From the NCBI RefSeq assembly GCF_026151205.1, contig NC_087084.1, positions 9,699,453 through 9,763,452 on the forward strand: a stretch of 64,000 nucleotides of DNA, given 5' to 3'. Position 1 is the first letter of the stretch. Each line of letters starts with the position of its first letter. Shown here one piece after another: positions 729 through 61,134 of this stretch. A program made the translations under genes and the position numbers. The DNA is from Bolinopsis microptera. Its lineage: Eukaryota; Ctenophora; Tentaculata; Lobata; Bolinopsidae. The notes below the pieces were generated by a model. That model saw only the letters and a program-made list of their open reading frames with translations, ran no database searches and was not told where the DNA came from.

Positions 729-1985
729 TTTTTTTTATAAATATGCAACCTACTAAAACCAATGGGGCCCTCCCCGGGGTCATTACTCTCGCATTTGCGT
801 GAGTCGTCCCAAAGGTGTGAAAGTAGGTCAAGATTTGTTCACACCAAGCCCTAGCATTGCTATTTGCTGACCATCTGCCTTCACTGAAGGTATGTTTTTA
901 GAGAGTGGAGGCCGACCGTCAGCTTGGGATGCAGGGCCAAGTGGTCAACAACGTCAAGGCCCCCTTCCGCATGGGCCATGTTGGTTTTGGCAGATACTGT
1001 GGTAATAAGATATGAAGTGAATGAGTGAAATGAAGTGATTGAAAAGGGTGTAAAAGAGGAAGAGCTTGTAAGGTAGTTTAAGAATGGAAGGAAGCAGGGC
1101 ATGTACTACAAAAAACAGTTAGTAGTACTGTAAGATAGTAACAATAACCATTGATAATAAAATAACAAAGACAGCAATATAAATGGGGTGGACAATTTGC
1201 CCTAATCGGCCAAGATCGACACAATAGAACTTTTGTGGCCTATTTTGTCTCCAGTAAGTGAAAGTTTAAGAAGTTTGATATATCCCTGCCAGATCGGCAT
1301 GTCCCCTGCCTGAAATCTTTTGCTAATGTACCATTTGGCAACAATATTAAAATAATTTATAATTTGTGAAGTGTGATTACAAACTATAAAATTAATTTTA
1401 TTGGGGTCTTTGTAATTTGTATCGATTTTCCTTTTTATAAAGTCTTCAAGTATTGTGATGAAGCTATTTGTGTGGATACAATGGAGATAGATATGAGGAA
1501 TTGTTTCTAAGTATGTGTTACACAGGCTACACATGGGAGTATCTGTAACAATTTTCATTTTCTGTCTCATGTATCTACACGTCGTGATCCTCATTAAAAG
1601 CTTATACTGAAATTGAATCAACTTAAAATTTTTAGATACTAAGAAAAATAGGTTGCTAAGAACGACCGCCCAATCTATTGGTTGATTATTTAGGTCAATA
1701 ACCCATTGACGTAATGGGGACAGCTCGTTTGGGCAGATAGAGTCGTACATTTTATCCCGAATTTTACTTCCCTTCACCTGTCCAGTTACAGAATGTAAAA
1801 ATTTAAGTTTTATATTTGAGTCAACAAACTCAATATTCCTTGAGTTAATAGTGGGGCAGTTATATTATATATTTTCTATAAGGGTTTTTAAAGACATGAT
1901 ATCTCGGTCACACTTCACAGTAATATGTATCAGCATGGGCCGCTTTACACTTTGCTGTTTAAATATTAATATCACCACTACATAG
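691..1985 (-). mobile_element. Non-LTR retrotransposon (LINE), 5'-truncated 3' end
   Basis: Minus-strand insertion. A T-rich run at 691-736 is the poly(A) tail. It is followed by a 3' untranslated region (about 740-1201) that recurs at 10990-11493 in the opposite orientation, then by the end of a reverse-transcriptase ORF. Coding similarity stops near 1985, so this is a truncated, dead copy. Seen: shared 3' end with the second copy and the poly(A) tract. Inferred: retrotransposition by target-primed reverse transcription. Confidence 0.85.
1202..1975 (-). pseudogene. LINE reverse transcriptase C-terminal region (zf-RVT)
   Basis: The open part (1202-1777) ends in the C-terminal portion of a non-LTR retrotransposon ORF2. 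It holds a zinc-binding-like motif CSLCNTYLETIPHIYLHC (CX2C...HX4C), typical of the zf-RVT region after the polymerase domain. The frame continues upstream to about 1975, with peptides such as KRPMLIHITVKCDRDIM, interrupted by one TAA at 1865-1867. No AP-endonuclease or catalytic YXDD region is present. The same peptide is encoded at 10663-10991 on the plus strand. It is a fragment with no expected function. Confidence 0.8.
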
Positions 1986-4523: not shown

Positions 4524-5786
4524 CCTTAGTTCCCAAAAATTTGTGTGCCATTATATTGAGCACAATTTATTTGAGCCCGAAAAATTTGGGCAGAAAATTT
4601 GAACTCATTTGGGCGACCGAAAATTTGGGCACAAATTCTTCGAAAAATGAACGATTTTCCACTAAAATTTCAGTTACATATTTGTTCATTATTATTCCTT
4701 ATTATTCCAGTCATTTTGCTTTCAATTTTAAGCATGTAGGTGGTAGTCTGAGTTGTTTCGCATTATGAAATTTACGATCTGCCCAGTAACTACTAAAAAA
4801 TACAGTGATGATGGCACAGTACAAAATGATAGATATATACAATAGTGATATTTAGTCTCTCAATCAGATAGTTTAGTCTACTTACACTCAGCATATCTTA
4901 TCATACCCCTTTCACGTACAATTATCATTATGACGCCTCACCAGATGGTCGAAAGGTTTGACCAGTGTCCAGTTCTTTGAAAAAACCCTTCTTCCCCACA
5001 TAGAATCAGTTAGAGCCTCCATCAACAACCCTGAGCAGAAAGCGCTATTGATATCAGATGTGTTTCGGGCCCAACACACACAGACACTAAAAGATCTGAT
5101 GACAGCCAACAACTGCATCCTACAGAAAGTTCCAGCTAATATGACCCATCATCTACAGCCCCTGGACATATCTATCAATGGACTGGCTAAGAAATTCATG
5201 CGCAATAAGTACGAAGATTGGTACGCGAAAAACATAGTGTGTCAGCTCAATGGAGGAGTTTCATCAGACAATGTGAAAATTGATACCCGCTTGACAGTGA
5301 TCCGTGAAGTACACGCTCGTTGGATCAACGAACTTTTTGTCTATTTAAAAGGGAGGCCAGATGACATAAGGAAAGGCTTTGAGAAGTCGGGTTTAACTGA
5401 TGCTTGTAGATCAGACTTTACGGTGGATGATAATCCATTTGCAGATCTTGTTTAAATCTCTAGCTATCCGTACCTCTAGCCATTTGTTTTATTATAGTAG
5501 CTGTAAGCTATTCCAGTTATTTCTATTCATTTAAAATATAAGCCTTTTTACTTGGTCAAGCCATGAATGACAGATTAGAAAACTAAAATTTCAAATATTA
5601 TTTCACTTGGATATGAAGAAAAAGCCATCTTTCTATAGATTTCAGGGCCACAGGCCAAATGCCAAAAGTTTGGTTAGCAAAAAACTTATCAGACGGAAAA
5701 GATTTATGCAATTAATTTGGTCTGCAAAAAATTTGGGCGAGAGGCCCGCTCAAATTTTTTGTCGCCCAAATTTTTGGGAATTAAGG
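4524..5786 (+). mobile_element. pogo/Tigger-type DNA transposon, internally deleted
   Basis: Terminal inverted repeats CCTTAGTTCCCAAAAATTTG (left) and its near reverse complement ending at 5786 (right, AATTTTTGGGAATTAAGG), flanked by TA on both sides as expected for this superfamily. Several internal AAATTTGGGC motifs repeat near both ends. It carries only the C-terminal part of a DDE transposase (4958-5455). It lies in an intron of the TRPM-like gene. Confidence 0.75.
4958..5455 (+). pseudogene. DDE transposase C-terminal fragment (pogo/Tigger family)
   Basis: 165-residue open frame without a convincing ATG. Recognised from LLISDVFRAQHT (second catalytic Asp region) and VPANMTHHLQPLDISINGLA (T-x-x-x-QPLD, third acidic residue), followed by a K/R-rich helix. 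Full pogo/Tigger transposases also have an N-terminal HTH pair and the first catalytic Asp, both missing here, so this copy cannot be autonomous. It lies inside matching terminal repeats. Low divergence from the family motifs suggests a fairly recent insertion. Confidence 0.85.
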
Positions 5787-5819
5787 TACCAAGGAAATGA
5801 GATGTCGCTTCTTAATTAG

Positions 5820-6267
5820 GTTTTGAGATTTTATCAGCCTCATTGCTTATAATTTCGATTTATTTATTAGCAGATCGCATTTAATTTCTGGGTGCAAAAA
5901 GCCGCATCGAATTTTCTGACCAGCACTATATTTACTCGCACACGACCAAAGTGTTAAAGATTCACGTTATCAATTAGTGCGCTCCAGTGAATCGGCGAAT
6001 GGTTCCCACGAAATTGGAATTGAATTTAGACAGAATATGAAAAACAAAAGAAACTGCATTTCAGTAGTACGGGTTTCCGTGGGATGAAAGATTCGGCGTA
6101 AAAAAACGTGTTGTACAGGGGGACCGTGTAATGGAGGAGGTAGCCTGTTTTCCTGGCTATAAGCCGGCTGTAAGAAGGCTATTAGCTAGAGGGTTGTTAC
6201 CGTAACAGCCGGCTATAAGCCGGTCAATATCCGGTCGGTATTGTACATATTTTCCTTTGTGTGAGCC
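5820..6267. other. Intergenic or intronic stretch, no gene seen
   Basis: AT-rich sequence. The only structure is a local inverted motif around 6160-6235 (AGCCGGCT and TAAGCCGG recur several times). Confidence 0.5.
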
Positions 6268-6615
6268 TAACATACCAGGCTTGTCCGCTGCCGCTGGACG
6301 CCGCGGCCCCGGTCAATTTGACCTCGCCGCACGCCGCCGGTACCACCCCCGGCGTACGACGGCGTGAATTATGTAACATCGAATTTTTCCGTATGATCAT
6401 CTGAAAGTTTCACTCAAAATTCAATTTCAGATTTACAAATAAGATAAATAAATAAATCAAATTAAAATCAAATTTTTGCACAGATCAATTTTACTCAATT
6501 GTCGGAAAAAAAGCACGATAATAGACCAAATTTTTGTCTTTTAGGGTCGATCTCACGCCGGCATACGCCGCCGCCGCCGACTGGTTAAGCCACGGCGGAC
6601 AAGCCTGTAACATAT
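6268..6615. mobile_element. hAT-like MITE with 8-bp target duplication
   Basis: Ends CAGGCTTGTCCGC (6276) and GCGGACAAGCCTG (to 6607) form a 13-bp inverted repeat. They are flanked by TAACATAC and TAACATAT, a near-perfect 8-bp duplication as made by hAT transposases. The ends are strikingly GC- and CpG-rich (CGCCGCCG runs) around an AT-rich middle. There is no coding capacity. Confidence 0.65.
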
Positions 6616-8002: not shown

Positions 8003-8527
8003 TATTGCTATTTACACGTGACACGTGTAAATAGAGCATTTGCACGTGCAAACGTGTTTATTAGTAATAACTCGACGCATGAAAGTCAACATATTAATTT
8101 CATCTTTTGATGCGACCGATTTGTATTCCAACCTTCTTCCATCTGTGAATAGCAATTAGGTCGTATTAAGATACGGATCACAAAGGCATTCATTAAATGT
8201 ATTTAATTTTACTGTCTTATCGGACGTTATTTGACCGAACATTAAAATGAACGCTAGGGCCTCTAGCCGCCTAGCTTCCAATTAATGTTCATTCGAATGA
8301 TGTTTGATATGGTTTGTATTTTCTGAATGCGAAGTTGGGAATTTGCCAACTGATTTACCTGCTCATTATCAACTTCTTCCTTTGTTATTGCTATTTGCAG
8401 GTGCAATTAGAGCATTAGCACGTGCAAATATAGGATTTACCTGCTCATCATATCAACAACTTTCTCCTTTGTTATTGCTATTAGCCCGTGCAATTAGAGC
8501 ATTTGCACGTGCAAATGTAGGATTTAC
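8003..8527 (-). repeat. 82-87-bp repeat containing a splice donor
   Basis: Three units begin at 8352, 8434 and 8521 on the plus strand (GATTTACCTGCTCAT). Read on the minus strand, each carries GATGAGCAG followed by GTAAATC, i.e. the last bases of the exon at 8528 plus the start of its intron. A partial fourth unit without the donor lies at 8003-8052 (GCATTTGCACGTGCAAA). Confidence 0.8.
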
Positions 8528-8926
8528 CTGCTCATCAACAAATTCCTCCTTATCTTTCTTCCGTCCTAACGTTATCTTCCCAATCATCAGATCGAATCTA
8601 GTCTTGTTCCTGTACTTGTTATTACCAGCACTTGATGCTGCTGACTCACTAAGCCGGGTTTCCTTCATCTTAATATTAGCTGCATCCTTGAAGCTAACTC
8701 TAGGTCCTCTCTTAGTGGAGGAGGTAGCGATGATCATATCTGCTACTGATTTAAGAGGTCCCTCTACAGCAGGGGAGGTAGCGGTGATCATATCTGCTAC
8801 TGATTTTGGAGGTTCCATTGATTCTATACCATTACTTGGGTTCTCCATTGGATCCGCTGGTACAAACCCCCGAGTCTTTGTGATGGGCAGATAAGACGAT
8901 AACAAACCCGCTTCACGCTTGTCCAA
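8528..8926 (-). CDS. Candidate exon, low-complexity Ser/Ala/Lys protein segment
   Basis: Open frame of about 130 residues ending at a donor GATGAGCAG then GTAAATC, exit phase 0 (last residues KKDKEEFVDEQ). The 5' edge is uncertain; the best acceptors lie near 8880-8860 (TTTGTACCAG) or upstream of 8900. It has an internal duplication: KSVADMI occurs twice about 20 residues apart. Composition (S, A, E, K rich, no hydrophobic core) suggests a disordered region. It is on the same strand as and upstream of the TRPM-like exons, so it could be part of the same gene, but nothing proves this. I recognise no family. Confidence 0.5.
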
Positions 8927-10316: not shown

Positions 10317-10662
10317 ATGCCAAACCGTATCCAAGATTAGGGATTAGGGTATGCGACGAGATTATTTCTCGATAAGATAATTGGGTAAAAATCTTTATCG
10401 GTTGATCTCGATAATTTGGCACTGATAACCGTTAAAATTAAACCAAAATTCCTCCGACTTAAACATAGAAATTTAAGATTTAATCCTTGATACATTTACT
10501 ATTTCTCATGATCAATATAACAGTAGTTATAGTGTAATAACTTTTGCATATTACTAATATAACGTATAAGGCATAAGCCATACCTAAATTATTTTTAATA
10601 CAGAGTAGAGCTCACTATATTATGGAGACCGAGTTATGACTTATGTCAAGTCTTAGTAGTCT

Positions 10663-11493
10663 TGTGTAGCCTGTGTAACACATACTTAGAAACAATCCCT
10701 CATATCTATCTCCATTGTATCCACACAAATAGCTTCATCACAATACTTGAAGACTTTATAAAAGGAAAATCGATAGAAATTACAAAGACCCCAATAAAAT
10801 TAATTTTATAGTTTGTAATCACACTTCACAAATTATAATTATTTTAATATTGTTGCCAAATGGTACATTAGCAAAAGATTTCAGGCAGGGGACATGCCGA
10901 TCTGGCAGGGATATATCAAACTTCTTAAACTTTCACTTACTGGTGACAAAATAGGCCACAAAAGTTCTATTGTGTCGATCTTGGCTGATTAGGGCAAATT
11001 GTCCACCCCATTTTATATTGCTGTCTTTGTTATTTATTATCAATGGTTATTGTTACTATCCTACAGTACTACTAACTGTTTTTTTGTAGTACATGCCCTG
11101 CTTCCTTCCATTCCTAAACTACCTTACAAGCTCTTCCTCTTTTACACCCTTTTCAATCACTTCATTTCACTCATTCACTTCATATCTTATTACCACAGTA
11201 TCTGCCAAACCAACATGGCCCATGTGGAAGGGGCCTTGACGTTGTTGACCACTTGGTCCTGCTGACGGTCGGCCTCCACTCTCTAAAACATACCTTCAGT
11301 GAAAGCAGATGGTCAGCAAATAGCGATGCTAGGGCTTGTGTGAACAAATCTTGACCTACTTTCACACCTTAGGGACGACTCTCGCAAATGCGAGAGTAAT
11401 GACCCCGGGGAGGGCCCCATTGGTTTTAGTAGGTTGCATTTTATAAAAAATTAAAAAAAAAAAAAAAAAAAATAAAATAAAATAAAAAAAAAA
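10663..11493 (+). mobile_element. Second LINE 3' end, with poly(A) tail
   Basis: Coding 10663-10991 repeats the 1202-1777 peptide (CNTYLETIPHIYLHC to the final SILAD) with a frameshift near 10770. It then has the same 3' untranslated region and an A-rich tail at 11447-11493. It is in the opposite orientation to the copy at 691-1985. 5'-truncated and dead. Confidence 0.85.
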
Positions 11494-33187: not shown

Positions 33188-33354
33188 ATGCATAATTGCG
33201 TACACACAGTGTTAACTGTAAAGTATTGAACTTGTGACCATGCCTATTAAACCCCACTTTGAGTAGAATACCCAGTGGAGCATGAATTCTTATCATATGC
33301 TCACCAACCAGTTAGTAGTTAATGCCATGTTGCAGAAGCACTTCGCTTGATAGT

Positions 33355-36068
33355 ATGAGGGTTTTGCTTTGGTTTTTATATCTGCTTCTGACAATAAAAC
33401 CGGCTGAATTGTCAGATACCAACTGTAATGACGTTTGCACGTTTCTGCACGAAGAACCCGAATGGGGTAGCATTACTGACTTTGAAGGCGCTGCTTTCAC
33501 CCACGAATTGATTTCTAACACAGTGGCTGGTATAATATCTGCAGAATTCATAACTTATTACAATATAATAGATGACTGCACTAGAAACAAGTTACAATTC
33601 ATAAGTAGTCAAGAGGGAAATTATGACCTACCGCTCGCATTTTGGTTCGAACCAACAAAATCAGTCAGTGTGTCCGGATTTCTTTCTGGAGTAAAAAAAA
33701 ATAGTGGATACTTTGCATTCCCTCATGAAATGGGAGATTATTTCCAGTTATCGGACAGGAACCCGAACTTCTATTCGATGCTCATGGGAAACACTAATAA
33801 TGCAACATCTATGCAATCCCTTGAGATCAATTACAAATCCAACGAAACCTGGGAAAAGTACCAAAACAATAACGTCAAACTCCGTGACACAGTCAGGATA
33901 ACAAGTGAAGGGAAATGTGTGGTCTTCAAGTACATCTCTGTGTGTCCTGATGCAACTCCTAGACTCTGTGACGAACCTTCCTCGGTTGTAGAAGCACAGT
34001 TAGGTGAATCCTACAATCTCTATTGCTCTGCTTCGGGTGCTCCATTCCTTGCTGCGAGCTGGATTCATGATGGAGAACTCGTGACGAACTCAAGAGAGAC
34101 CCATGTTGTTGATAAAGCCACACACAGAATCATTTCACAGATAGATATACATGATTTCTCACATGATGACCTAGGAGAATGGACTTGCACTATTCATAAC
34201 AAGAATCTCGGGAACAGTGTGACAAAGACCATCAAATATTCCTACTCAAGCAAAACAACTGTAACCCAAGCTCCATCGCAGGACTATTACATACCAAAGA
34301 ATGATCAACTAACATCATTTGAGTGGACTGTGGAAGGCTGGCCTCTAGATCAAGTTACTTTAGATTGTCATGGAGTTGAAGAAAATGATATCACTAAAGG
34401 TAGCTCAGAGTATCAAGATAACGAACCTCCTATTATTAAGCTTACTTTGACACTACAGGATAAAGATCAGGTATTGTGCAAAGTCACTGACGGGGATAAG
34501 GTTCTAGATACAAAGAACATCACCAAGGTAGGGTTCGGCTGTGTGGCTGGTGAGAAGGGTGTTGATAAAGGCTGTGAGGTATGTCCTCAAGGAGAAACAA
34601 GCCAGGCTGGAAGTATAGAGTGCTTCTCGGTTGAGATTCAGTGTGAAGAAGGAACTTATGGCGTAGAGGATGAATGTGAGGTATGTCCAAAGGGAACAAT
34701 CAGTCCGGAAAATGCTGCGAAAGTTCAGGAATGCATTTTAACAACAAGTAGCTGTGAAGACGGGTCCTATGGAAGTGAAAATGACTGTAAAGTTTGTCCA
34801 AAGGGTGAGATAAGCTCTGCAAGTTCTGTGAAAATACAGGAGTGTGTTAGAGTTGAGAGTAGCTGTAGAAAAGGAGAGTTTGGTTATAACAACATTTGCA
34901 CTGAGTGCCCAATAGGGAAGATAAGTGAAAAGCACTCTGTTAAAATCCAAGAATGTGAAACTGCCACAAGCACATGCGAAGAAGGTGAATATGGCACTGA
35001 CATTTGTCACACTTGCCCCCACGGTAGCGATAGTCCCAAATCTACTGTCAAGATACAGGACTGCGAGTTTAAAGAAAGTTCCTGCGGTGAAGGATACTTT
35101 GGAGTTAAAGATGACTGCTCACTCTGTGCAAGCGGAGAGTTCAGTCACAAAGATGCTGTCAAAGCCAAAGACTGTTTTCCTAAACCAGGATCAAATGAAG
35201 TAGATAACTCAACGAATATTCTCCCTCTCATCGTCGGACTAGGAGGTGGGGTAGCAGTACTTCTCATAGCAGTGTTGATTGTTCTAGTAATACTACTGGT
35301 GCGACAAAAGGGCAATTCATCATCACAACAACAAGACCTACCATTAACCACAAATATAGTAGAGAAGAAGAAGAGTTTCAGGGCAAAGAAGCAGGAAGTG
35401 ATAGTAGCCACCACAGTAAATCCCCTTTATGAAATACACAATCTGGCCGATAATGAGAACACCCAGGATGCCTCGGTGAGCCAGCCTCAAAAGACTGCAG
35501 GTAATGTCCCGCAAGAAGGAGATGTCCATGTTGAGGATGATGTTGCTGAGGAGAGTGTTTACGAACAAATGCTACAAAGCTATCCCAAAAACGATGCAGA
35601 AACCTCTGAGGACACCTACACAACCCTGGACAGACCAAAGAAGAAACTAGGGCGATCTTTTTCAAGCAAGGGTGATGCTGTTGTGGAGATTCAGTCCGCT
35701 TATGAGACACTGAGTGAACATGTCGGAGAGGTGTCGGAGATAAAGGAGTTAAAGGAGATAAAGGAGATAAAGGAGGCAGTCGGGAAAGACAAAGGCAAAC
35801 TAGAAAAAAACAGCGAGACAAAAGGAAAAGGTCTGGTGATTGACACTCAGAAAGACATCAAAGATATCATCATCAAGAACCAAGGTGATATTGTTGGTAG
35901 AAAAGTCGATGTTGAGAGCGACGATGAGGGAGACTATGATATTCTCGAAGACCCTCCTCGGCTTATAAAACCACGTGATGATCCTGGTTGCCATGGCGAG
36001 GTTCCTGGTTACCATGGTGAGACTGCGCAGTCCACAACCTCGCCTATCTACAGCCAAGTAGATAAACG
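33355..36068 (+). CDS. Ig/cysteine-rich-repeat transmembrane receptor, exon 1
   Basis: A large exon of 904 codons plus 2 nt. I prefer the ATG at 33355 (A at -3) because it opens directly on a signal peptide, MRVLLWFLYLLLTIKPAELS; an in-frame ATG at 33322 adds 11 residues. Then: an unassigned N-terminal domain with Cys pairs (residues 25-195); an Ig domain (about 203-297: C224, W236, LGEWTC with C278); a second Ig-like domain (C338, C375); six about 37-residue cysteine repeats (396-607; C-x8-C-x2-CP-x-G pattern, like ephrin-receptor-like/GCC2-GCC3 repeats); a transmembrane helix (622-649) followed by RQKG; and a long tail. Tail tyrosines include NPLYEI (Y692), VYEQM (736), TYTTL (755), SAYETL (783, fits an ITIM), DYDIL (861) and IYSQV (899). 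The in-frame TAA at 36070 sits inside a donor (AAACG then GTAAGA), so translation probably continues into 41656. Confidence 0.88.
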
Positions 36069-36228
36069 GTAAGAAGTAAAACACAAAGTCCGACAATTCT
36101 TAATGGTTCGTTTTTCCTTAGAAAGTCCATATTAGAAATATGATTCTGCCTGGCTAATCTTTCAAACTCGTCACTCGTCAGTCTGTTATTATGGTTACGA
36201 GAATCCGTTTATTCAACAAGTTGAAATT
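36069..36228 (+). other. Start of receptor intron 1
   Basis: Begins GTAAGAAG. Only about 160 bp before and 110 bp after the inserted 5.3-kb element are ordinary intron, so the ancestral intron was probably under 300 bp. If the intron is retained, the TAA at 36070 ends the protein after VDKR. Confidence 0.5.
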
Positions 36229-37095: not shown

Positions 37096-40000
37096 GGGGG
37101 GGGGGGGGGGGGGTCCAACCCGATCATTCCGATCATTCCGATCCCGATTTTGGCCTCATCAACCCTCATATCGGAAAAATCGGGAAAATTTAAATCTTCC
37201 CTCTGAGGTTTCTAGGCGATATAGGTAGCTATTTCTGTACTTAAATATGACAAGAAATCGATTGGTGGTGGTCCCAGAACTCCAAAATGGTATCTTGTTC
37301 CAAACAAGAATCGTTTCGTCCGAAAAACAACACAATGTCGAATCAACTCTTGTTAAACAGAAACATCCACCCCGGTCCACAATTGAAAGAGGTACGGTTG
37401 GTAATAACAATCGTAACAAATAGCGAACGCTTTAGTAACTTTTGATTTAAATTGTCTCTACAATTTGTCTCCACAATTTGTAACAGGCTATCTGCAGAAA
37501 TGGGTAGCACGGTTAATGACTGGTCCTTTCTCAAACTTCCAATCCTCAGTTAGATACAAAGAATAGTCTACACAATTTTCAATAACATTAAAAGGGATGA
37601 AAATCACTTTATTTATCAAAATCTTTATTTATCATGTAACAACTTTTCCATAGTACTGGAGAGTAAAACTCTATTAAACAAAAAAATTCTCGAGCACATT
37701 TTGAGTCAGTAACAGTAACATGTCAATATGTTACAGACTCAAATGCGTTTAAAAACATTTTAGTAACAATAAATTGTGTAAACTGATGAGGAGGAGGAGG
37801 ACAGAGGAGAAGGAGGACTGAGGAGGACAGAGGAGGAAGACTGAGGAGGACCAGGACGAGCACTAGGAGGATGAGGACGAGGACTAAGGACGAGGACTAG
37901 GAGGATGAGGACGAGGACTAAGGACGATGAGGACGAGGACTAAGGACGAGGAGGAGGACGACTGAGGAGGAGGACTGATTAGGAGGAGAAGGAAGAGAAG
38001 AAGGAGGAGGATGAGGAAGAGAACTGAGGAGGAGGAGGAGAAGGAGGAAGACTGAGGAGAAAGAGGAGGACCGAGATGGACTGAGGAGGAGGAGGACTGA
38101 AGAGGAGAGGGAGGACTGAGGAAGAGGAGCAGGATTGGTGGAGGAAGACGAGAAGGAGGAGAAGGAGGAGGACGAGAGCGAGGACGAGGAGGAAGACTGA
38201 GGAGGAGGACTGTTAAAAAGGAGAAGGACGAGGACTGAGGAGGAGGACTGAGGATGAGGAGAAGGAGGACTGGGGGAGGACTAAGGACGAGGAGGACTGA
38301 GGAGGAGGACTGAGGAGGAGGACTGAGGATGAGAAGGAGGACTGAGGATGAGGAGGAGGAGAAGGAGGACTGGGGAGGACTGAGGAAGAGGAGGACTTAG
38401 GGAGGACTGAGGAGGAGGAGGACTGAGGAGGATGATGAGGAGGAGGACTGAGGATGAGGAGGAGGAGAAGGAGGACTGGGGAAGGACTGATGAGGAGGAG
38501 GACTGGGGGAGGACTGAGGAGCAGGAGGATGACTTAGGAGTAGGAGGAGAAGGAGGAGAAGGAGGAAAAGGATGAGAGGGAGGAAGAGGACTGAGGAGGA
38601 GGAGGAGGAGGACTTAGGAGTAGGAGGAGAAGAAGGAGAAGGAGGACTGGCGAGGAGGAAGACTGACGAGGAGGAGAAGGACTGCGGAGGAGGAGGACTG
38701 AGGAGAAGGACTGCGGAGGAGGACTGACGAGTAGGAGGAAGAAGAGGACTGAGGAGGAACAAGATGAGGACTGAAGAGGATGAGGAGGATGAGAAGGAGG
38801 ACTGGGGGAGGACTGAGGAAGAGGAGGACTTGGGGAGGAGGATGAGGAGGAGGAGACTGATGAGGACGAGGAGGACTGAGGAGGAAGACTGAAGAGGATG
38901 AGGACAAGGACTAAGGACGAGGACTAGGAGGATGAGGACAAGGGCTAATGAAGAGGAGGAGGACGACTGAGGAGGAGGACTGATTAGGAGGAGAAGGAAG
39001 AGGAGAAGGAGGAGGAGGATGAGGAGGAGGACTGAGGAGGAGGAGGATAAGGAGGAGAACGAGGAGGAGGATGAGGAGGACTGAAGAGGAGGAGGATAAG
39101 AAGGGGAATGAGGAGGAGGAGGAGGATGACTCAGGAGGACTCAGGAGGTGGAGGAGGACGAGGAGGAGGACTCAGGAGGAAGACTGAAGAGGAGGAGGAG
39201 GATGATGAGGATGAGGACTGAGGAGGAATACTGAAGAGGACGAGGACTAAGGACGAGGAGGAGGAGGAGGAGGACTGAGGAGGAGGAATGATTAGGAGGA
39301 GAAGAAAAAGGAGAAGGAGGAGGAGGAGGAGGAGGAGAAGGAGGAGGATGAGGACTGGGGGAGGACTGAGGATGAGGATAAGGAGGACGAGGACTAAGGA
39401 CGAGGACGAGGACGAGGACGATTATGAGGAGGACAGAGGATGAGGACTGATGAGGAGGAGAAGGAGGATGAGGATGAGGACTCAGGAGGAGGACTCAGGA
39501 GGTGGACTCAGGAGGTGGAGGAGGATGAGAAGGACTCAGGAGGAGGAGGACGACTATGAGGAGGACTGAGGAGGACTGATGGGGAGGAGAAGGAGGATCA
39601 GGAGGAGAAATGAGGATGAGGAGGAGGAGAAGGAGAAGGAGAAGGAGGAGGACTGGGAGTAGGAATGAGGAGGAGAAGGGGATTGAGGAGGAAGGTGAGG
39701 AGGACTGAGGAGAAGGGCGAGGACGAGGAGTCAGGAAGAGGACTGAAGAGGACTGAGGAGGAGAAGGACTCAGGAGGAGGAAGACTTAGGAGGAGGAGGA
39801 GGAGGACATCTAAATGTTTTGTCTGTTTTTGTCCGTTTTTGTCCGCCCTACTTTTTGTCCGTTTTGAAAATACAGGGAACCGAACGGACACAAAACATGA
39901 TCCCCCAGCCAAGCATGTGTTACGATACAAATGTACTTGACTATACATTTAAGGTGCAGTGTACTAGTGATATTATGGTATGTTTAAAGACCGGACCACA

Positions 40001-45647: not shown

Positions 45648-45823
45648 CTAAAGTTTTAATATTTTCAACAAGTAATTTTATTTTTGATTAAGCTGCAGTG
45701 ACAATATAAATTTCGTCGTATAATTTCGCAATTTTTGAACGGACCAGTAATTGCTAATGCGGAAATAAATAACTTTTAGCAAACTAATAAATAACTTTAA
45801 GCAAACTAATCACTTACAATAAA

Positions 45824-46101
45824 TAACGTTAACCTGCACGTTAACCTGCACGTAATAACGTTAACCTGCACGTTAACCTGCGCGTAATAACGTTAACATG
45901 CACGTAATAACGTTAAACCTGCACGTAATATAACGTTAACCTGCAAAGTGCACGTAATAACGTTAACCTGCACGTAAACCTGCACGTAATAACGTTAACC
46001 TGCACGTAATAACGTTAACCTGCACGTAATAACGTTAACCTGCACGTAATAACGTTAACCTGCACGTTAACCTGCACGTAATAACGTTAACCTGCACGTA
46101 C
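45824..46101 (-). repeat. 20-bp array starting at a splice donor
   Basis: About 15 copies of GTTAACCTGCACGTAATAAC (plus strand), some shortened. Read on the minus strand, the array begins exactly with the donor of the exon at 46102 (GAG then GTACGTGCAGGTTAAC), so the first bases of the intron have been amplified. Confidence 0.9.
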
Positions 46102-46179
46102 CTCAGTGATGACTGAACTCTTCCTCAGTTTATTCAGTCCTAGTTCCACTTTCTCGCTCAGTATATTACTGCCACTATT
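46102..46179 (-). CDS. 78-nt exon of microexon gene
   Basis: Acceptor TTAATTTCAG, 26 codons in phase 0 (NSGSNILSEKVELGLNK, then LRKSSVITE), donor GAG then GTACGT. Leu/Lys/Glu spacing suggests coiled coil. The adjacent intron start is a tandem array (45824-46101). Confidence 0.7.
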
Positions 46180-46482: not shown

Positions 46483-46509
46483 CTGCATCTCACCGAGCTT
46501 TCGGAACAA
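46483..46509 (-). CDS. 27-nt microexon (LFRKLGEMQ)
   Basis: Strong acceptor TTATTATTTTCAG, nine codons LFRKLGEMQ, donor GTGAGC; phase 0 at both ends, so it could be included or skipped without changing the frame. It leads into the exon at 46102. Confidence 0.65.
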
Positions 46510-52790: not shown

Positions 52791-53208
52791 GAGTGATTGA
52801 TTATAGCTTCCCCGTAAAATTAAAACGGTGGAAATGATTATCTTTAAGATCTGTGAAAGTGAGGATGCAAGGTTTGATATCTTATTACCATAATTTATTT
52901 TCTCCTAAAAAGGACACGGTGTTTATCAGCGCTCTTTACCCGTTAAATAGGAAATGTCAGAATTAACTGCAGGTTTTTACTAAGCTTTCAGTACATTTAA
53001 AGTAATAATTTTGGTATTAATTCCGAGCACGTGCTAAAGTACTCGATATCAAGTTTGTTTGATGTGTTTTTAAACGCGGATTCCGAATCTCCCCACATTA
53101 CATAGGGTTAAAATATTTTCCCCCAGTTATTAGCTTAAAAAACTGTTTTTATCACGCGACATGGCCATATAAGGAAGTAGGTCAAATACTGCAGAATATC
53201 GCGGAATA

Positions 53209-53753
53209 CCGTGATAACTTAATAATAACGTACCTCAGAGGCACCATTATACCGTGATAACTTAATAATAACGTACCTCAGAGGCACCAATATACCGTGA
53301 TAACTTAATAATAACGTACCTCAGAGGCACCATTATACCGTGATAACTTAATAATAACGTACCTCAGAGGCACCATTATACCGTGATAACTTAATAATAA
53401 CGTACCTCAGAGGCACCAATATACCGTGATAACTTAATAATAACGTACCTCAGAGGTACCAGTATACCGTGATAACTTAATAATAACGTACCTCAGAGGC
53501 ACCATTATACCGTGATAACTTAATAATAACGTACCTCAGAGGCACCAATATACCGTGATAACTTAATAATAACGTACCTCAGAGGCACCATTATACCGTG
53601 ATAACTTAATAATAACGTACCTCAGAGGCACCAATATACCGTGATAACTTAATAATAACGTACCTCAGAGGCACCATTATACCGTGATAACTTAATAATA
53701 ACGTACCTCAGAGGCACCAGTATACCGTGATAACTTAATAATAACGTACCTCG
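53209..53753 (-). repeat. 43-bp array of 13 units, each with a splice donor
   Basis: Units begin every 43 bp at 53209, 53252 ... 53725 (CCGTGATAACTTAATAATAA, then CGTACCTCAGAGGCACC). Only three or four positions vary (CATTATA/CAATATA/CAGTATA). Read on the minus strand, each unit contains GGTGCCTCTGAG then GTACGTTATTATTAAG, a copy of the last bases of the exon at 53750 plus the start of its intron. Confidence 0.97.
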
Positions 53754-53825
53754 GAAGCCCCAATATCAATCTCAACCACGTTCTTGTTTTCGATGACCAC
53801 GCCGGACTCTTTTTCTCCTCCATTA
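53750..53825 (-). CDS. 76-nt exon of microexon gene, donor amplified
   Basis: Acceptor AATTTCTTTTTCAG, one nucleotide completing AG-T (Ser), then 25 codons: NGGEKESGVVIENKNV, then VEIDIGASE, donor GAG then GTACGT. Exits in phase 0. The alternation of charged and beta-branched residues looks like ordinary protein. Its donor region is the seed of the 13-unit array; use of any downstream donor copy would add a stop because the intron start reads GAG GTA CGT TAT TAT TAA. Confidence 0.75.
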
Positions 53826-54292: not shown

Positions 54293-54322
54293 CTGTCCAG
54301 GGATTCTACGCTACCATCAATA
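54293..54322 (-). CDS. 30-nt microexon
   Basis: Acceptor AATCCTGCAG, 30 nt, donor GTACGA. Phase 2 on both sides: it reads S-IDGSVESLD-S when joined to its neighbours and could be skipped in frame. Confidence 0.6.
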
Positions 54323-54574: not shown

Positions 54575-54691
54575 CTAGTTGACTCAGGTTTAGGTTCGTC
54601 TCCCTTCTTTTTCTTAGGGTCCTCACTCTCGTCAACCTTGTCCGGGTTGGCCATAACGTAGACTTTGTTATTCGGCGTCACGCCTTCCGCC
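54575..54691 (-). CDS. 117-nt exon of microexon gene
   Basis: Acceptor ACTACCCCTCAG, one nucleotide closing an Arg codon, 38 codons (AEGVTPNNKVYVMANPDKVD, then ESEDPKKKKGDEPKPEST), then AG and donor GTACAG. Probably a cytosolic, lysine/acid-rich linker. Short copies of its acceptor and first bases lie upstream at 54830-54930. Confidence 0.7.
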
Positions 54692-60237: not shown

Positions 60238-61134
60238 ACACACATCTCTCTAATACATGCGTCTCTCTAATACACATCCCAAACACACATCTCTCTAATA
60301 CACATCCCAAACACACATTTCTCTAACACACATCCCAAACACACATCTCTCTAATACACCTCCCAAACACACATTTCTCTAACACACATCCCAAACACAC
60401 ATCTCTCTAATACACCTCCCAAACACACATTTCTCTAACACACATCCCAAACACACATCTCTCTAATACACCTCCCAAACACACATCTCTCTAATACACA
60501 TCCCAAACACACATCTCTCTAATACACATCCCAAACACACATCTCTCTAATACACCTCCCAAACACACATCTCTCTAATATACATCCCAAACACACATCT
60601 CTCTAATACACATCCCAAATACACATCTCTCTAATACACATCCCAAACACACATCTCTCTAATACACCTCCCAAACACACATTCCTTTAATACACATCCC
60701 AAATACACATCTCTCTAATACACATCCCAAATACACATCTCTCTAATACACATCCCAAATACACATCTCTCTAATACACATCCCAAACACACATCTCTCT
60801 AATACACCTCCCAAACACACATCTCTCTAATACACATCCCAAACACACATCTCTCTAATACACCTCCCAAACACACATTCCTTTAATACACCTCCCAAAC
60901 ACACATTCCTTTAATACACATCCCAAATACACATCTCTCTAATACACCTCCCAAACACACATCTCTCTAATACACATCCCAAACACACATCTCTCTAATA
61001 CACCTCCCAAACACACATTCCTTTAATACACCTCCCAAACACACATTCCTTTAATACACATCCCAAATACACATCTCTCTAATACACATCCCAAACACAC
61101 ATCTCTCTAATACACATCCCAAACACACATCTCT
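60238..61134. repeat. 28-bp array, about 32 units
   Basis: ACATCTCTCTAATACACATC then CCAAACAC, with recurring variants (CACCTCCC, ATTCCTTTAATACAC) that themselves repeat in blocks, showing higher-order duplication. Confidence 0.95.

Follow-up and report, generated by a model that had tools for sequence, protein, structure and literature searches.

The locus considered here raises the question of how an exon comes to be followed by a row of copies of its own splice donor, and of which donor such a gene can be expected to use. In the window (the whole stretch of 64,000 nucleotides that was analysed), a predicted exon on the minus strand ends in a strong donor that is repeated, with part of the exon before it and part of the intron behind it, throughout the start of the following intron.

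The array and its repeat unit

An earlier note on this DNA had described a tandem 43-bp array with donor copies directly behind an exon, and this observation is confirmed both by Tandem Repeats Finder and by the positions of the hexamer GTACGT. The features of the array are as follows.

53206-53766, minus strand: 43-bp tandem array of 13.0 copies (Tandem Repeats Finder: period 43, 96% matches)
53744-53752, minus strand: authentic donor GAG/GTACGT, with its GT at 53749-53748
53228-53709, minus strand: 12 further donors GAG/GTACGT, with GT starts at 53706, 53663, 53620, 53577, 53534, 53491, 53448, 53405, 53362, 53319, 53276 and 53233

On the minus strand, GTACGT recurs at an exact spacing of 43 bp from 53749 to 53233, 13 times in all, and each time GAG stands directly before it, so that the splice signal is kept in 13/13 cases. 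These steps give a total of 13 donors, the exon's own (the first) and 12 copies, rather than the 14 that had been counted before. The unit consists of the last 17 nt of the exon and the first 26 nt of the intron and thus spans the exon-intron boundary; its exon share was set by an alignment by eye, reaching ATATTGG, and 14 of these 17 nt are common to the unit and the real exon. The description of each of the 13 units as an exon end plus an intron start holds for 12, but the 13th is the intron part alone (28 nt), after which unique intron follows. In the same way, the exon end has indeed been copied 12 times (GGTGCCTCTGAG in 11 copies and GGTACCTCTGAG, which begins GGTACC, in one), but the copies differ from the exon itself, GGGGCTTCCGAG, at 3/12 sites. 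Intron nucleotides 1-28 are the same in 13/13 units, and the 12 full units vary by one G-to-A and at one site, TATA[A/T/C]TGG, with no other change. The cluster is therefore homogeneous while the boundary copy stands apart, its exon end being three silent sites off the 12 copies.

The array is confined to a single genomic locus. The 28-mer GTACGTTATTATTAAGTTATCACGGTAT, searched with up to 3 mismatches through the 264.65-Mb genome, was found at 13 places, which are the 13 units, and its backward control at none, so that chance is excluded; a genome search with the 617-bp region returned this locus alone. The earlier note had held that an occurrence of the array elsewhere, unlinked to exons, would speak against its reading, and the genome-wide search with the 28-mer brought up no such occurrence.

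The predicted exon at the array

That the array begins at an exon end with a strong donor is supported for the predicted exon (E3) by its codon score, by an exon scan and by the fit of phases with its neighbour. The predicted and candidate exons around the array, together with a second minisatellite, are as follows.

54575-54654, minus strand: candidate exon E1 from an ATG, its start putative, MANPDKVDESEDPKKKKGDEPKPEST followed by AG, donor AG/GTACAG, codon p 0.012
54293-54322, minus strand: small exon E2 before E3, IDGSVESLD, donor CAG/GTACGA, phase fitting E3, p 0.007, also in the exon scan
53750-53825, minus strand: exon E3, ending in phase 0, ...NGGEKESGVVIENKNVVEIDIGASE, exon scan 17.0, codon score p 0.007
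46483-46509, minus strand: candidate next exon E4, LFRKLGEMQ, phase 0 to 0, codon p 0.08, also in the exon scan
46102-46179, minus strand: weak candidate exon E5, NSGSNILSEKVELGLNKLRKSSVITE, donor GAG/GTACGT, p 0.25, absent from the exon-scan picks
45822-46100 (to 46102), minus strand: second minisatellite, which begins within the E5 donor and has units without an exon-end copy

The exon scan covered the minus strand of the whole window, with codon weights from 5056 codons of kinase matches in the same genome, and is a crude control in that the splice-site weights were the analyst's own choice. Among the 10 candidates that it listed, E3 came second (17.0, the top candidate having 17.2). The score of the six-exon chain is 22 bits, which 0.02% of 5000 null chains reach, their mean being -20; its members E4 to E6 are weak (codon p of E6, 0.17). 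If E4 is the next exon, the intron that carries the array is 7.24 kb long.

With scores of 9.6 on the forward and 9.1 on the reverse strand, the codons of E3 leave the strand undecided. The 104-residue chain has no significant match in Pfam (best 0.43) or PDB, and a genome search gave no paralog or second copy of it; the gene having no relative in Pfam or PDB, the case for the predicted exon is built on its codon statistics and splice signals, on phase, and on the fact that its differences from the copies are synonymous. All three exon/copy differences are synonymous in the predicted frame (GASE in both), and in either other frame the same three would change three residues each; among 5940 possible triple changes at the exon end, 62 (1.0%) would be silent. 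Because the differences are silent in the predicted frame only, coding selection seems to have preserved the array-bearing exon end ever since its divergence from the copies. Reading past the exon into the intron gives GAG GTA CGT TAT TAT TAA, which translates as VRYY-stop and bears out the in-frame TAA that had been foreseen for any donor past the first.

It could be argued that no exon is present and that an intergenic minisatellite carries a donor motif by accident, a reading that accommodates the lone 104-residue chain and the similar score of the reverse-strand codons. The codon score, the exon scan, the phase fit and the silent-only differences all oppose it and leave it barely probable, and the placement of the array at the boundary of a predicted real gene is supported by coding statistics, the exon scan and the same silent-only differences.

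The window may hold another array of this kind, if the candidate exon concerned is real.

8352-8551, minus strand: array of 87 bp x 2.4 that spans the donor AG/GTAAAT of candidate exon 8799-8528 (minus)

Several further features lie in the window. A 917-residue open frame at 33319-36072 (plus) has an immunoglobulin domain (I-set 9.5e-10), repeated cysteine-rich segments and a tail rich in tyrosine motifs; a GAG-rich low-complexity repeat of 2 kb occupies 37782-39806; a minisatellite of 28 bp x 31 lies at 60262-61134; and one protein fragment, which by eye resembles the last part of a LINE reverse transcriptase, occurs twice, at 1202-1864 (minus) and 10599-10992 (plus).

Arrays at donors elsewhere in the genome

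Arrays with the same anatomy are present at other exons of this genome, and because arrays across exon boundaries recur in it, the suggestion that the array is a byproduct of repeat growth is supported. The following loci are used in the comparisons below.

L080, C10:4505700-4506950, on to about C10:4507556: homeodomain exon (Pfam 9e-8), ...PYLTPTQRADLAKSLNLAQIQVQ, ending LAQIQVQ, with 35-bp units that copy the exon end
L044: sushi exon (Pfam 7e-11) with an array of 91 bp x 3.8, and a second exon with 79 bp x 1.9
L027, array at 5185-6350: 34 donors in a 34-bp unit, exon weakly sushi-like (0.024, below the cut-off)
L025: exon ...NCHVAYLMIALFTQ, then 36 donors GTACTT at 32-bp steps, no Pfam match
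L036: array of 65 bp x 2.0 at an exon donor
L075: WD40-like exon (WD40 0.0056, below the cut-off), 29-bp unit
L079: exon score rank 2/69, no Pfam match

The homeodomain match of L080 ends at profile position 45 of 57, and the remainder of a homeodomain, with its WFQNRR, must sit in the next exon, so that the donor at this array is very likely real. The homeobox gene is perhaps the best one in which donor choice could be followed. The sushi locus L044 carries an array at a donor that is free of one in a paralogous exon (L043), which indicates that this L044 array is young and that growth there was recent. The array of L025 closes with one GTAATT, which may be the original intron start. In L027 the frame is open through the first units, with no stop there, unlike in the window array. 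Copies 1, 4 and 7 of L027 have GTGGGT in place of GTGAGT, which keeps the exon frame open through the first units, and splicing from donor 3 or donor 6 would lengthen the protein in frame by 34 or 68 residues; the GTGGGT change is found in five of copies 1 to 8, for which chance is a possible explanation. Unit lengths at the other arrays (34, 32, 91, 79, 65, 37, 87, 35 and 29) follow no pattern.

Not every array with a donor motif begins at a recognisable exon. Of 13 other arrays fetched by the donor motif, three (L080, L075 and L079) start at a site in the top 5% of the GT sites of their own flanks and the other 10 do not; a Pfam-matching exon stands at the start in two, one of which (WD40) is below the cut-off. 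Among the AGGTRNGT matches listed, six arrays were seen: L025 and L027 begin where an exon ends, L029 abuts an acceptor, and the other three do neither. The acceptor case, at C1:2507000-2511000, is an array of 46-50 bp beside a copine-like exon (Pfam 1e-4, below the cut-off). L028 and L026 had been considered as further cases; they show no clear exon-end copy and were left out of the count. An array at C8:7268823-7269127 has the unit ...TTACCTTATTTCAG/GTAAGT..., in which an acceptor-like and a donor-like signal stand back to back, as in recursive splice sites.

The frequency with which arrays meet donors was assessed in 54 predicted exons not selected for arrays, from 17/22 sushi, 14/16 fn3 and 20/20 kinase loci on both strands, with overlapping or duplicate loci excluded. 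The donor lay inside an array in 3/54 and the acceptor in 1/54, all of them among the 22 exons of sushi loci (donors 3/22, 14%), where arrays make up 14.7% of non-exon DNA. In fn3 loci, 0/15 exons had an array at the donor (arrays covering 10.4% of non-exon DNA), and in kinase loci 0/17 (2.2%). Another sushi sample (18/22 loci, plus strand only) gave 14 exons, with two donors and two acceptors within arrays. In repeat-rich (sushi) genes, arrays thus do not seem to avoid donors, at these small numbers. A separate scan of 240,449 bases for arrays of exon ends or exon starts gave 12 rows for donors and 13 for acceptors, from which no rate was taken, the set being partly chosen for arrays and several rows being one place in overlapping loci; its limit of two mismatches left the window's own array outside it.

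Whole-genome motif counts are mixed, and an enrichment is unproven. Three AGGTRNGT at short spacing gave 8641 matches against 1110 for the backward pattern; the permuted motif AGTGRNGT gave 6752 and, backward, 6235. Since the permuted motif is also abundant and a few long arrays rule the counts, a genome-wide enrichment of donor arrays is not claimed. Counts of CAGGTAAGT (446 against 0 in the control) and of the acceptor motif TTTYCAG (1581 against 371) exceeded their controls, and that of GAGGTACGT (26 against 80 in the control) goes against the repeat-at-donor reading.

Origin of the array and choice among its donors

A comparable situation has been described in amphioxus, where so-called mirages are minisatellite-like tandem duplications of exon-intron boundaries, found in Adh3, the globin genes BflGb6 and BflGb9, troponin C and PGBD5; according to the excerpts of these papers, splicing is regular though many repeats carry AG/GT, and array length varies (PMC3087553; PMC3902484). 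The window array shares with them, as excerpted, units that lie across the boundary, AG/GT-type signals in the copies, and a likeness within the cluster from which the boundary copy stands apart. Mirages are reported in these excerpts to hit either boundary in genes that are apparently intact, and the arrays described here, at predicted exons, resemble them in this. Copy numbers differ, with 13 donors in the window and 34-36 at L027 and L025, as opposed to 6 and 3 units in the two BflGb6 haplotypes that the excerpts give. The window array is a long, clean example of this already known kind.

It is accordingly very likely that the array is a mirage-type minisatellite which grew from an exon-intron boundary and is tolerated, the first donor being the one normally used. 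At the outset, a 43-bp segment across the donor, with 17 nt from the exon and 26 nt from the intron, would have been duplicated in tandem, and slippage at microhomology is the probable mechanism. The microhomology at the unit joint is about 2 bp (17 plus 28 shared intron nucleotides minus 43); a script for exact matches, which halts at the first exon difference, returns -12 for this array, and exact matching gives 8 bp at L027, 0 at L025 and 10 at L044. Further copies may have arisen by slippage or unequal exchange, and the same processes would keep the copies alike, while the real exon end would have remained under coding selection, with drift confined to synonymous sites. Splicing presumably takes the first donor, because no other gives an open message, and the normal mRNA would most likely come from it; the 12 later donors would be cryptic, and their use would append Val-Arg-Tyr-Tyr-stop. 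With the first donor normally used, the array would be tolerated. It is probably tolerated repeat growth, and not a new device.

Cases are known in which later donors of such a repeat are put to use. The minisatellite of human IFI6, which Turri is said to have treated in 1995, reportedly has a unit of 12 nt. In this gene (6-16, G1P3) a minisatellite carries multiple splice donors, and the excerpt of the account states that downstream repeats act as donors and encode isoforms (PMC4526556). The window array is like it, as there described, in being a minisatellite at a donor with each repeat a potential donor, and unlike it in that the unit of 43 nt is 1 mod 3 and a stop lies five codons into the intron. 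In-frame isoforms from later donors, of the IFI6 type, are for these two reasons not expected at the window array.

The stop suggests another use, in which a set share of transcripts would take a later donor, end in VRYY-stop and decay, with copy number tuning protein dose. Such a dosage rheostat had been proposed earlier, as had a decoy array for U1 snRNP, and neither found support here. The rheostat is very unlikely, even though the stop falls within the first extra stretch, the 9-mer GAG/GTACGT is unchanged at each of the 12 additional donors and, where equal donors compete, the intron-proximal one is often favoured. A young homogeneous array would show unchanged donors in any case, and in L027 variation at the donors is about equal to that in the remainder of the unit (5/297 against 16/825 cells in 33 full units, counted by hand). 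The lack of a pattern in unit lengths at the other arrays, and the open frame of the first L027 units, by which the stop is not a general trait, also speak against it.

It has further been considered that the choice is gated by a hairpin, GUGCCU-CUG-AGGUAC, which would fold over the donor of each copy and which the exon's three silent changes would weaken, leaving the first donor open. Predicted folding of the 24-mer gives -6.8 kcal/mol for the copy and -2.1 for the exon. With 30-nt flanks the predicted opening cost is 3.15 at the first donor and 4.56-5.63 at the copies, and when 64 synonymous forms are ranked by openness in exon context, the exon's codons come 3rd and the copies' form 64th; local accessibility at the first donor exceeds the copy median 25-fold with a folding window of 120 and 27-fold with one of 200. 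However, with 50-nt flanks in exon context the ranks are 12 (exon form) and 46 (copies' form) of 64, and in unit context they are 30 and 53 (30-nt flanks) or 9 and 46 (50-nt flanks). With 50- and 80-nt flanks some copies open equally or more easily than the first donor, and with a folding window of 70 the first donor reaches 2.9 times the copy median, yet the last copy is more open. Moreover, 50/500 shuffled units fold equally well, and the idea was framed after the sequence had been seen. Ratios of first-donor to median accessibility elsewhere were 3.6, 1.0 and 1.1 at L027, 0.2, 0.4 and 0.1 at L025, and 1.0, 1.0 and 59.5 at L044 (3 donors); these being unlike those of the window array, hairpin gating was dropped as a general rule. 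Gating of the window array itself appears unlikely, and the hairpin is a possible local help there.

The earlier note had also seen in the array an intermediate in intron gain, which would follow the Rogers model if the AG/GT at each unit joint served as acceptor and donor. Examples of intron gain by tandem duplication given in the excerpts are ATP2A1, fission yeast SPOG_01682 and potato RdRp (PMC4974935; PMC3629103). Tandem repeats containing AG/GT are common to these examples and to the window array, in which every unit joint reads GAG/GT, and the same excerpts report introns in fission yeast that consist of tandem 24-nt repeats (PMC3629103; PMC4974935). In human segmental duplications, internal tandem repeats located at exon-intron boundaries are described in excerpt as forming novel introns (PMC2812944); they resemble the window array in that minisatellite expansion is able to change exon-intron boundaries, and are unlike it in belonging to primate-specific paralogs whose novel introns have transcript support. 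In the Rogers-type gain of the excerpts a new intron appears inside exonic sequence, whereas the window array lies behind an existing donor and lengthens an existing intron, with nothing that points to a new one; the stretch before the AG in the unit is, by eye, pyrimidine-poor. The fit is loose, and intron gain in progress is highly improbable.

The boldest reading would combine several of these elements: minisatellites would routinely capture live donors in this genome, a heritable and fast-changing copy number would set the amount of correct mRNA, and the silent changes would have been selected for keeping the first donor open while the copies are hidden in hairpins. This is a long shot.

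How the spliceosome settles on one of many identical donors is a question still being worked on, and this genome offers natural exons behind which their own donor is repeated, the copies numbering about 2 to 36. Such exons, in a homeobox gene, in sushi genes and in others, allow the effects of donor position and copy number to be tested with no need of artificial constructs. The arrays also provide material for the view that introns change by tandem duplication. As mirage-type minisatellites, they would extend a phenomenon that the excerpts cited above describe in lancelets to an apparently different animal phylum.
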